Positions 9,806-11,442 of a stretch of 64,000 nucleotides of DNA are shown one piece after another (positions within the stretch are counted from its first letter, which is position 1; each line of letters starts with the position of its first letter). The stretch comes from Gammaproteobacteria bacterium HGW-Gammaproteobacteria-2 (GTDB lineage: Bacteria > Pseudomonadota > Gammaproteobacteria > Xanthomonadales > Xanthomonadaceae), in the NCBI GenBank assembly GCA_002840015.1, contig PGZE01000011.1, positions 1 through 64,000 on the forward strand, written 5' to 3'. The notes under the pieces were generated by a model. It saw nothing but the letters and a program-made list of their open reading frames with translations, was not told the origin of the DNA and made no database searches. A program made the translations under genes and the position numbers.

Positions 9806-10363
9806 CTATGCCTCTGCAGGCGCCGTCCATTCGCGGCAGATTCGGCTGGTTTGCTCCTGGGCCAGCGGCTCGCGGGTCAAACCACAATGTGCGCCGTCTG
9901 CGTCGGATAGAAAATGCGTGCATTGCCTGCAGATTCCAAACGGACGCTGTCCGTTGACGCGTTGCAGTGAGCGCAACAGGTTGCGCAGGGTGATTTCACA
10001 GGCGATGCCACCGCCTGGCATCGCGGCCAGGGCTTGCCCGACGCGCTCCGCCCAACTTGCCTGAAGTACCGATTCGCCGGCTGCGGTCAGGCGCAAATGC
10101 ACGCGCTTGCCATGGCGCGGGTCGGGCTCCTTGATCAGCAAACCCTTGCCCTCCAACACCGCCAGGCTTTGCGATACCGTTCCACGCGTGATGCCGAGGT
10201 ATTCGGCAATCGCAATTGGCAGGTCGCTGTAGTGGTTGGCTTGCGCCAGGTATTGCAGGATATGCAGATGGACTGGCAGCAAGCCGTGTTGTGCGGCGTC
10301 GTCGCGCACGGATTGCTGGGTCAGGGCGCCGAGACGCTCGTAACTTGACAAGGTCAGCGTCAA
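9806..10363 (-). CDS. MarR-family regulator with a four-cysteine C-terminal extension
   Basis: 185 residues. Winged helix-turn-helix at about 32-100 (IAEYLGITRGTVSQSLAVLE, then wing DPRHGKRVHLRL). A dimerisation helix follows, then an unusual tail: Cys145-x2-Cys148-x11-Cys160-x15-Cys176. This looks like a metal or redox site. The start is TTG at 10363, because an in-frame stop lies two codons upstream and no ATG is available. It is divergent from the cytochrome P460 gene with a 48-base gap holding a perfect palindrome, so it probably controls that operon and itself. Confidence 0.85.
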   Translation of the reverse strand: MTLTLSSYERLGALTQQSVRDDAAQHGLLPVHLHILQYLAQANHYSDLPIAIAEYLGITRGTVSQSLAVLEGKGLLIKEPDPRHGKRVHLRLTAAGESVLQASWAERVGQALAAMPGGGIACEITLRNLLRSLQRVNGQRPFGICRQCTHFLSDADGAHCGLTREPLAQEQTSRICREWTAPAEA

Positions 10364-10373
10364 TATTTATGCT
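10345..10373 (+). promoter_or_regulatory. Candidate sigma-70 promoter of the cytochrome P460 operon
   Basis: A perfect -35 TTGACA (10345-10350), a 17-base spacer, and -10 TATGCT (10368-10373, four of six consensus bases). The -35 overlaps the first codons of the divergent MarR gene. The MarR-type palindrome begins 4 bases downstream, over the expected transcription start. Confidence 0.55.
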
Positions 10374-10376
10374 GAT

Positions 10377-10397
10377 TATGCATCGACCCGATGCATA
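10377..10397. promoter_or_regulatory. Palindromic operator candidate for the MarR regulator
   Basis: TATGCATCG-acc-CGATGCATA, a perfect 9-base inverted repeat with a 3-base spacer. It lies between the -10 and the ribosome binding site of the P460 gene and about 14 bases from the MarR start. Size and symmetry fit MarR operators. Confidence 0.65.
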
Positions 10398-10411
10398 ACG
10401 GAGGGCCTGCC

Positions 10412-10888
10412 ATGTCGCGTTTGTTTGCTGTCGTGTTGCTCGCTGTATTCGCCAATCCGGTCTTGGCTGAAGAGCCTGAGGTTGCCTACCCCGATGGCTA
10501 CCGCAACTGGCACCATGTCAAGAGCATGGTCATTGAAAGTGGCCATCCTTTGTTCGCTGCGTTTGGCGGTATCCATCACTTGTATGCCAATGACAAGGCG
10601 ATACAGGGTTATCAGTCGGGTACCTTTGCTGATGGCGCGGTGATCGTGTTCGACTTGCTGGAAGCCAATGCCGCTGATAATGCGGTGACCGAAGGCGCGC
10701 GCAAGGTGGTGGGTGTGATGCAGAAGAATTCAGCTGCCTATCCGACAACTGGCGGCTGGGGCTTTGAAGGCTTCGCCGGTAGTGACAAGGCAAAGCGCGT
10801 GGTGGGCGCCAACGCAGCAACTGCCTGTTTCGCCTGCCATCTGCCGCAAAAATCGCGGGATTACGTGTACAGCAACCTTCGCGATTGA
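10412..10888 (+). CDS. Periplasmic cytochrome P460 family haem protein
   Basis: 158 residues. Start at ATG 10412, preceded by GGAGG 7 bases upstream. A Sec signal peptide (about 1-19, ending PVLA) is followed by a P460-type beta domain (YPDGYRNWHHVKSMVI, HHLYAN, FADGAVIVFDLLE) and a C-terminal c-type haem site CFACH at residues 139-143. Family members oxidise hydroxylamine/NO or bind NO and similar ligands; which applies here is not shown. It forms an operon with the thioredoxin-like gene 11 bases downstream and is divergent from the MarR gene. Confidence 0.88.
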   Translation: MSRLFAVVLLAVFANPVLAEEPEVAYPDGYRNWHHVKSMVIESGHPLFAAFGGIHHLYANDKAIQGYQSGTFADGAVIVFDLLEANAADNAVTEGARKVVGVMQKNSAAYPTTGGWGFEGFAGSDKAKRVVGANAATACFACHLPQKSRDYVYSNLRD

Positions 10889-10899
10889 GAGGCAACAAC

Positions 10900-11442
10900 A
10901 TGAATACCTCCGTTGTGGCGCCGGAATGGCAAGTCAGCTGCTGGTTCAATACCAGGCAACCGCTGAGCCTCGCGCAATTGCGCGGCAAAGTGGTGCTGAT
11001 GCATGCGTTCCAGATGCTGTGCCCTGGCTGCGTCAGCCATGGTGTGCCGCAGGCCGAACGTGCGCATCGCGCCTACGTCAATGATGGTTTGGCGGTGATC
11101 GGATTGCACACGGTATTCGAGCATCATGAGGCAATGACGCCGCTGGCGCTGGAAGCTTTTTTGCATGAATATCGCGTCACTCATCCGGTTGCTGTGGATG
11201 AGGCCGTAGCGGGTGAACACATTCCGGCGACGATGCAGCGTTATCGCTTGCAGGGGACGCCGAGCGTGATCCTGATCGATCGTCTCGGACGACTGCGCAT
11301 GCAAGAGTTTGGCCGCATCGACGATTTGCAGCTCGGCGTATTGTTGGGTCAGTTGCTGGCCGAGAACGCCGATACCGGTGCGCTGGCAACAGACGTGACG
11401 GGCTCGGGTTGTACGCCGTCAGGGTGCCAGGTGGCACCCTGA
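10900..11442 (+). CDS. Thioredoxin-fold (redoxin/TlpA-like) protein
   Basis: 180 residues from ATG 10900. Redoxin-like fold with Cys41-Pro-Gly-Cys44 after a strand (GKVVLMHAFQMLCPGC), GLAVIGLHTVF, and the cis-Pro region LQGTPSVILIDRLGRLR. There is no signal peptide, so it is cytoplasmic as read, unlike its P460 neighbour. The extreme C-terminus has a second cysteine pair (GCTPSGC), possibly metal-binding or a resolving thiol. CPGC rather than CPPC or CGPC suggests an unusual redox potential. Co-transcribed with the P460 gene. Confidence 0.8.
   Translation: MNTSVVAPEWQVSCWFNTRQPLSLAQLRGKVVLMHAFQMLCPGCVSHGVPQAERAHRAYVNDGLAVIGLHTVFEHHEAMTPLALEAFLHEYRVTHPVAVDEAVAGEHIPATMQRYRLQGTPSVILIDRLGRLRMQEFGRIDDLQLGVLLGQLLAENADTGALATDVTGSGCTPSGCQVAP

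Follow-up and report, generated by a model that had tools for sequence, protein, structure and literature searches.

Cytochromes P460, described from N. europaea and Methylococcus capsulatus, carry a cross-link between a lysine and the haem, and they share both Pfam family and fold with a protein encoded in the stretch of DNA analysed here, 64,000 nucleotides of contig PGZE01000011.1 (hereafter the window), which has a phenylalanine at the position of that lysine. The gene for this protein is divergent from that of a MarR-family regulator with four clustered C-terminal cysteines (a Cys4 tail) and is followed by a redoxin gene; these three genes and a palindrome make up the locus that we describe. 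The closest solved relative of the haem protein is the cytochrome c'-beta of M. capsulatus (McCP-beta; PDB entry 6hih), which shares with it the family, the Phe32/Phe61/Gly82 pocket and the CXXCH motif. In its accessible portions a 2025 review discusses no regulator or operon for McCP-beta, whereas the c'-beta gene of the window has an adjoining regulator. The cellular role of the cytochromes c'-beta has been proposed and is not settled, according to the available part of PMC11928373.

The control of nitric oxide (NO)-handling proteins in response to NO, the kind of job that we propose for this locus, is performed elsewhere by NsrR, an Rrf2-family protein, and by the NorR, DNR, NnrR and HcpR networks, all of which belong to protein families other than MarR; the word MarR is absent from the text of Rodionov 2005 (PMC1274295). 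A MarR-type parallel is provided by CioR of Chromobacterium violaceum, a repressor over cytochrome bd, a haem protein with a protective role against NO (PMC11837568). CioR differs in belonging to the GbsR subgroup, in having a respiratory oxidase as its target and in its proposed inactivation by zinc or iron, and the available part of that paper mentions no Cys4 tail. The redoxin falls by profile into one family with SPOA0173 (3eyt) and 3lor, whose PDB names give no tested function. MOSC genes, related to the N-hydroxyl reductase YiiM, stand beside the same operator in other genomes; the window has none. The cytochrome c'-beta, the MarR protein and the redoxin are members of known families. 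No description of the Cys4 MarR group, its operator or its exchangeable targets was found amongst the papers listed in a literature search that left most subscription journals outside. A preliminary description of the window, made from the sequence alone, did not recognise the three-gene set as a described system. Relatives of the regulator, often with a matching site, lie beside proteins linked to the binding of gases and to nitrogen chemistry, an arrangement suggestive of a family of reactive-nitrogen sensors that has not been described.

The haem protein and the Cys4 regulator

The analysis confirms the three genes and the palindrome. The preliminary description had noted a divergent MarR-type regulator with four clustered cysteines and a signal-peptide haem protein followed 11 bases later by a thioredoxin-fold protein, and both observations hold: the products match PF12802 (49.1 bits), PF16694 and PF08534, respectively, and the gap between the latter two genes spans 10889-10899. 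Its naming of the haem protein as a P460 does not survive closer comparison. The best structural match is 6hih (5.2e-49); the P460 chains follow at 1.1e-10 or weaker. Phe51, Phe80 and Gly101 of the precursor align to Phe32, Phe61 and Gly82 of McCP-beta, the residues listed as distinguishing the groups (PMC11928373 table 2, seen in part). In the corresponding P460 columns the second position is lysine and the third is usually a carboxylate. The window protein thus has the PF16694 domain, CXXCH and a Phe/Phe distal pocket of the McCP-beta type, with Phe80 in the column of the cross-linking lysine and Gly101 in that of the distal carboxylate. The same division is seen amongst the PF16694 places surveyed below: the Phe/Phe/Gly pocket occurs in 19 of 20 cytochromes c'-beta (the exception being L215; L-numbers denote fetched loci of relatives, G-numbers genomes) and the lysine in all 40 P460-type places. 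The source genome, which is 93% complete, contains one PF16694 match. On these residues the haem protein is a cytochrome c'-beta and not a P460, and an identity as a P460 or hydroxylamine oxidase is rejected on the absence of both lysine and carboxylate.

The reactivity with hydroxylamine or NO that had been expected of a P460 protein can accordingly be kept in part. Oxidation of hydroxylamine is unexpected since the defining lysine is absent, and tight binding of NO and CO (carbon monoxide) is to be expected from the pocket. According to the available part of PMC11928373, McCP-beta binds NO with a dissociation constant (Kd) at or below 1e-10 M (section 21), binds CO tightly and O2 transiently (Kd 7.4e-5 M), and autoxidises, and a peroxidase-like activity has been reported for NeCP-beta (section 26). 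The window pocket is of the McCP-beta kind, unlike the arginine pocket of NeCP-beta.

The cysteines of the regulator (C145, C148, C160 and C176) are invariant in all 18 rows of an alignment whose members were picked by score alone (A1), where they account for four of ten invariant columns. In a second, more diverse alignment of 34 rows (A3) invariance is confined to Leu39 and the four cysteines, a count that is not independent because 33 of the rows were chosen by the cysteine pattern; the remaining MarR-profile matches in that set score about 32 bits. The predicted model of the regulator (pLDDT, the predicted local distance difference test, 88.4) has a MepR-like fold (Z 13.3 over 134 residues, root-mean-square deviation 2.7 to 4l9j_A) and shows the tail as a hairpin and a short helix, with residues 141-180 at block pLDDT 84-93. 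No chain amongst the 60 of 103 fold matches listed covers the tail, which shows nothing because the MarR cores align over residues 1-141 in most rows and the tail is barely sampled. The tail is likely to hold a metal site; zinc, an iron-sulfur cluster and a disulfide may all be considered. The regulator possesses a winged-helix domain and, as conserved sequence, a palindrome near its own gene, both as in MarR proteins; the Rrf2 family, to which NsrR belongs, does not appear amongst the 22 Pfam matches with an E of 1 or below. Hosts of Cys4 MarR proteins include Luteimonas, Pseudomonas, Phaeobacter and the nitrite oxidiser Nitrotoga.

Operator and exchanged partners

The palindrome had been described as a perfect 9+9 repeat over the promoter; it is real and conserved, and its arms are of ten bases each around a 3-base spacer. 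At up to three mismatches the 23-mer occurs in none of 100 shuffles of the window and at a single site in the source genome. Upstream of regulators of the window's subgroup the consensus is the palindrome ATAGTATCGACTCGATACTAT, of which the window site TATGCATCGACCCGATGCATA is a variant resembling those of L046, L048 and L247. Matrices trained solely on regulators less than 60% identical were scored against the upstream regions of the subgroup: 55 of 65, the window's among them at 12.7 bits, outscored every one of their 100 dinucleotide shuffles. This leave-relatives-out test is not wholly blind, since the initial discovery of its training sites had used every region at once. Ten regions failed, those of L019, L215 and L265-L272; these last eight come from four genomes with two Cys4 MarR genes each and also lack the usual partners. 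A full matrix, which includes the tested sites and was cut at 13 bits, places 71 sites between 60 bp inside and 400 bp upstream of a regulator start and just two elsewhere in 480,577 bp, one of them at the c'-beta start in L215. Redoxin loci without the regulator contain no site in 478,204 bp, and PF16694 loci without it contain five in 413,079 bp: a pair at the edge of L190 and single sites in L188, L196 and L200. In the window the palindrome scores 17.8 bits and the next best place 10.2 bits. The palindrome is, by these sequence comparisons, a member of a conserved operator family. As a separate observation, the site at L196:4769 (16.7 bits) precedes a P460-type gene in a genome that was not checked for the regulator.

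The palindrome begins two bases past a promoter-like site, so that a bound repressor would occupy the start region of the operon, and the regulator probably controls the adjoining c'-beta and redoxin genes. Many loci carry two operator sites, mostly 43-57 bp apart, by inference one per promoter. In L034, where a gene separates the MarR and c'-beta genes, the operator lies 29 bp upstream of c'-beta; the intervening gene (L034:6701-7870) looks Fic-like by eye. A second subgroup of Cys4 MarR proteins has a different palindrome, TTAGGASTCCTAA, upstream of the regulator in L071, L091, L104 and L113, and TTAGGASTCCTAA-like palindromes occur in many of its members (found by pattern, with no control).

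A survey of 200 genomes of the order found a regulator match in 50 (E no higher than 1e-3); many of these matches score low and probably represent ordinary members of the MarR family. In the six places nearest to the regulator in sequence, c'-beta adjoins in all six and the redoxin in five, the sixth (L035) having no redoxin in the 18 kb fetched. In a class survey, 92 of 369 genomes had a PF16694 match, and the 60 highest-scoring places, the window's own excluded, comprised 20 c'-beta and 40 P460-type places. A Cys4 MarR gene adjoins 15 of the former versus none of the latter (Fisher 2.9e-10, relatedness not corrected). Two of the five c'-beta places without MarR (L193, L202) have a divergent HxlR gene and two (L190, L197) lie near contig ends, L190 with its two operator-like sites at the very edge; in L188 the c'-beta gene stands apart from the Cys4 MarR gene of its genome (L302), yet has a 19-bit site upstream. 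Only two of the 20 loci (L185, L186) include the redoxin, though some stretches end at contig ends. An obligatory three-gene set is thereby rejected, and the proposed self-contained sensor-response unit with its own operator is best retained as a conserved MarR/c'-beta pairing with a conserved operator, present at one site in the source genome, to which the redoxin is not a general addition. HxlR stand-ins ahead of c'-beta (L050:917-1264, L193:4476-4823, L202:5585-5905) share a conserved GCKWS cysteine.

Anchoring on the other members shows how the partners are exchanged. A redoxin-anchored scan matched at least 595 stretches, of which 586 of 595 encode a relative; amongst the best 80, which were kept, 33 have a Cys4 MarR gene, and 27 of these 33 also have c'-beta, protoglobin, a secreted protein of a family that we call X, or a small thioredoxin, R. 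None of these five is found in 37 of the 80, and c'-beta occurs in seven (five with MarR, two with HxlR). Protoglobin (PF11563), a different haem family that binds diatomic gases, takes the position of c'-beta in L116 and in L040, a further locus of the window's subgroup from the order survey. In a phylum survey 96 of 398 genomes matched the regulator profile at 1e-10, and the MarR-anchored set consists of the 34 places whose match extended at least to profile position 179, the window's own and all others being left out. At least one scored partner lies within 3.5 kb in 20 of the 34: X in 13, R in 11, redoxin in eight, DUF2024 in four and c'-beta in one, counted as hits of profiles built from these loci, with gene calls unreliable in several GC-rich loci. 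By these counts the regulator family extends beyond the module, and within the c'-beta branch the stable pair is the regulator with c'-beta. The P. aeruginosa copy of the regulator, which we take to be PA0942, is beside a thioredoxin and DUF2024. Family X is marked by VWPTSLDP, HPDFDD and WHSHW motifs (L042:9204-9917, L084:5218-5934, L116:5028-5744); it has no match in Pfam (three proteins), NCBIfam (two), PHROG (one) or the PDB, and its predicted model is weak (pLDDT 60.9). On a Polaromonas plasmid (L310:2820-6979) a Cys4 MarR gene without the operator is divergent from an aconitase gene, an arrangement that is suggestive only.

A search for GTWTCGANTCGAWAC in 40 genomes, including the source genome, where it is missing, found it in 20 genomes at 24 distinct sites, against two sites for a reversed control pattern. 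By comparison with the fetched loci, 18 sites are beside the regulator. One, in G352, precedes R and c'-beta close to a contig end, and one, in G079, lies directly before c'-beta, with a gene that looks Fic-like by eye between c'-beta and the regulator. The four distal sites (G844, G693, G610, G614) all adjoin a MOSC gene; Pfam, run on two of the four, identified both as MOSC; YiiM_3-alpha exceeds the cut-off in L304 but falls short of it in L301. MOSC genes also occur some 3 kb or less from the regulator in L086, L088, L256, L261, L262, L264, L276, L280 and L044, and in Phaeobacter inhibens DSM 17395 MOSC directly follows the regulator, X is on its other side and nirK about 5.5 kb away. The E. 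coli MOSC proteins YiiM and YcbX reduce an N-hydroxylated base (PMC3831636, seen in part), and the related mARC enzymes are described in the available part of PMC10637980 as reducing other N-oxygenated compounds, and nitrite to NO. Of the clues to the signal, this MOSC link is the one that points best to nitrogen-oxygen chemistry.

A proposed nitric oxide switch and its rivals

We read the locus tentatively, as a nearly even call, as a locally acting, autoregulated stress switch that would be released by NO or a related reactive nitrogen species. A dimeric MarR repressor would bind at 10376-10398, immediately downstream of the -10 element of the c'-beta promoter and near the start of its own gene, and block both promoters. 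The C-x2-C-x11-C-x15-C tail would hold zinc or an iron-sulfur cluster, or act as a thiol switch, and its disruption by NO or related species would cause the repressor to leave and the operon to be made. The cytochrome c'-beta would bind and buffer NO in the periplasm, and the cytoplasmic CPGC redoxin would reduce damaged or nitrosated thiols. What the sequences themselves establish is which genes are present, the residues of the pocket, and the conservation of the cysteines, of the operator and of the MarR/c'-beta pairing. A diatomic gas is suggested as the signal because the partner is an NO-binding type of c'-beta or, in some loci, a protoglobin; NO or hydroxylamine is favoured because of the MOSC partners and the presence of Nitrotoga amongst the hosts. 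The nitrogen-oxide or thiol stress named in the preliminary description fits the exchanged partners (c'-beta, protoglobin, MOSC and redoxins).

A number of observations weigh against this reading. Of the 15 MarR genes adjoining c'-beta, four (L183, L185, L186, L195) belong to the second subgroup, L215 has no operator site upstream of its regulator, and HxlR accompanies c'-beta in place of MarR in L193, L202, L050 and L089. Protoglobin occurs in 11 of the 80 redoxin loci, just six with a Cys4 MarR gene, and five of those six MarR proteins are of the second subgroup with the other palindrome, leaving only L116 in the window's subgroup. The commonest MarR-anchored partner, X, is without known function, and 14 of the 34 MarR-anchored places lack any scored partner. 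The MOSC query was unmatched in the source genome, in a search that had no positive control, and no gene for NO detoxification, such as hmp, norB or ytfE, was noticed under the operator, none having been searched by name. The redoxin looks cytoplasmic and the c'-beta periplasmic, so that the two are unlikely to form one enzyme. Finally, c'-beta also binds CO and, transiently, O2, and MOSC and redoxins would also suit a response to electrophiles or oxidants.

These points bear on three other explanations. The Cys4 tail might form a general thiol, electrophile or oxidant switch, through zinc-thiolate redox chemistry or a plain disulfide, answering hypochlorous acid, quinones, aldehydes or disulfide stress; the redoxin, R and MOSC would repair the damage and c'-beta would serve as a peroxidase-like or electron-buffering haem protein. 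R and redoxin are indeed frequent amongst the MarR-anchored places (11 and eight of 34), and MarR is replaced by HxlR, a group known for thiol sensing of electrophiles and oxidants, in L193, L202, L050, L089, L085 and L105, the L050 protein scoring 45 bits with the redox regulators RrpA/RrpB, far under the cut-offs of 185 and 175. The activity reported for NeCP-beta (PMC11928373 section 26, seen in part) points the same way, but the window pocket is Phe/Phe and not the arginine pocket of NeCP-beta. A general thiol switch leaves unexplained why the partner is c'-beta or at times protoglobin, haem gas binders that are unrelated to each other, and never a P460 (0 of 40), and we regard it as somewhat unlikely.

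A sensor of another haem ligand or redox state, such as O2 limitation, CO, sulfide or sulfane sulfur, would make c'-beta and protoglobin binders of O2, CO or sulfur; protoglobins bind diatomic gases, and the cysteine-rich tail could take up sulfane sulfur. The CO and O2 binding of McCP-beta would suit such a role, but its weak O2 affinity and autoxidation (PMC11928373, seen in part) do not, and MOSC points to nitrogen-oxygen chemistry, which leaves this explanation distinctly unlikely. A hydroxylamine-detoxifying unit built on a P460 has the Pfam family name, Cytochrome_P460, in its favour; it is very improbable for a protein without the cross-linking lysine and distal carboxylate, as characterised members that lack both do not oxidise hydroxylamine (PMC11928373 table 2, seen in part). 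Probes of the source genome for ammonia monooxygenase and multi-haem cytochromes were empty and are uninformative because no control gave a match, and a probe for copper nitrite reductase gave two hits below the cut-off in one frame.

A wider claim, possible rather than probable, is that a widespread, undescribed MarR class senses NO- or hydroxylamine-type stress through a metal or iron-sulfur site in its C-terminal Cys4 tail, reads ATAGTATCGASTCGATACTAT (TTAGGASTCCTAA in the sister subgroup) and runs interchangeable first responders: c'-beta, protoglobin, X, redoxins, DUF2024 and YiiM-like MOSC proteins. Were this true, X would be a further protein that handles NO or reactive nitrogen. The dedicated regulator and readable operator make the role of c'-beta testable by one induction experiment, regulation sets c'-beta apart from P460, and the shared regulator and operator point to functions for X, DUF2024, R and the FQMLCPGC redoxins. 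If the signal is NO, a MarR-type sensor would join NsrR, NorR and DNR.

Features of the locus

The positions of all features are collected in Table 1. The promoter match is not significant by itself, as the pattern was found once and shuffles contain a mean of 0.8.

Table 1. Coordinates in the window of the genes, motifs and candidate control elements of the locus
Feature	Position	Strand	Basis
MarR-family regulator gene, with C-terminal Cys4 tail	9806..10363	-	TTG start; open reading frame; PF12802 49.1 bits (cut-off 27), E 6.4e-13
Cys4 tail C145-x2-C148-x11-C160-x15-C176	9836..9931	-	beta hairpin and short helix in model
Sigma70-like promoter candidate for the c'-beta/redoxin operon, TTGACA-17-TATGCT	10345..10373	+	pattern match
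Putative operator TTATGCATCG-ACC-CGATGCATAA, of family ATAGTATCGACTCGATACTAT	10376..10398	no strand	inverted repeat, arms of 10 with 3-base spacer
GGAGG, likely ribosome-binding site for the c'-beta gene	10400..10404	+	sequence inspection
Cytochrome c'-beta gene, product predicted periplasmic	10412..10888	+	PF16694 113 bits; best PDB match 6hih, E 5.2e-49
c'-beta signal peptide	about 10412-10468	+	by eye
CFACH haem c attachment motif	10826..10840	+	C139, C142, H143
Redoxin gene (ResA/TlpA-like), product probably cytoplasmic	10900..11442	+	PF08534 29.4 bits (cut-off 26.6); profile best matches 3eyt, 3lor
CPGC redox motif in redoxin	11020..11031	+	both cysteines invariant in 10 rows of alignment
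11+11 hairpin across the redoxin stop codon, possible transcript end or stabiliser	11419..11442	+	fold z -5.19; no T-run

The redoxin combines a Redoxin domain over the cut-off with the CPGC motif, its profile matching 3eyt at 8.3e-73 and 3lor at 1.6e-63, and no signal peptide can be discerned by eye in its N-terminus (MNTSVVAPEW). It ends in an extra C-terminal cysteine pair (GSGCTPSGC, within 11401-11442) that has no counterpart in L003, L004, L007 and L034; similar pairs are found in L008, L011, L012 and L013.

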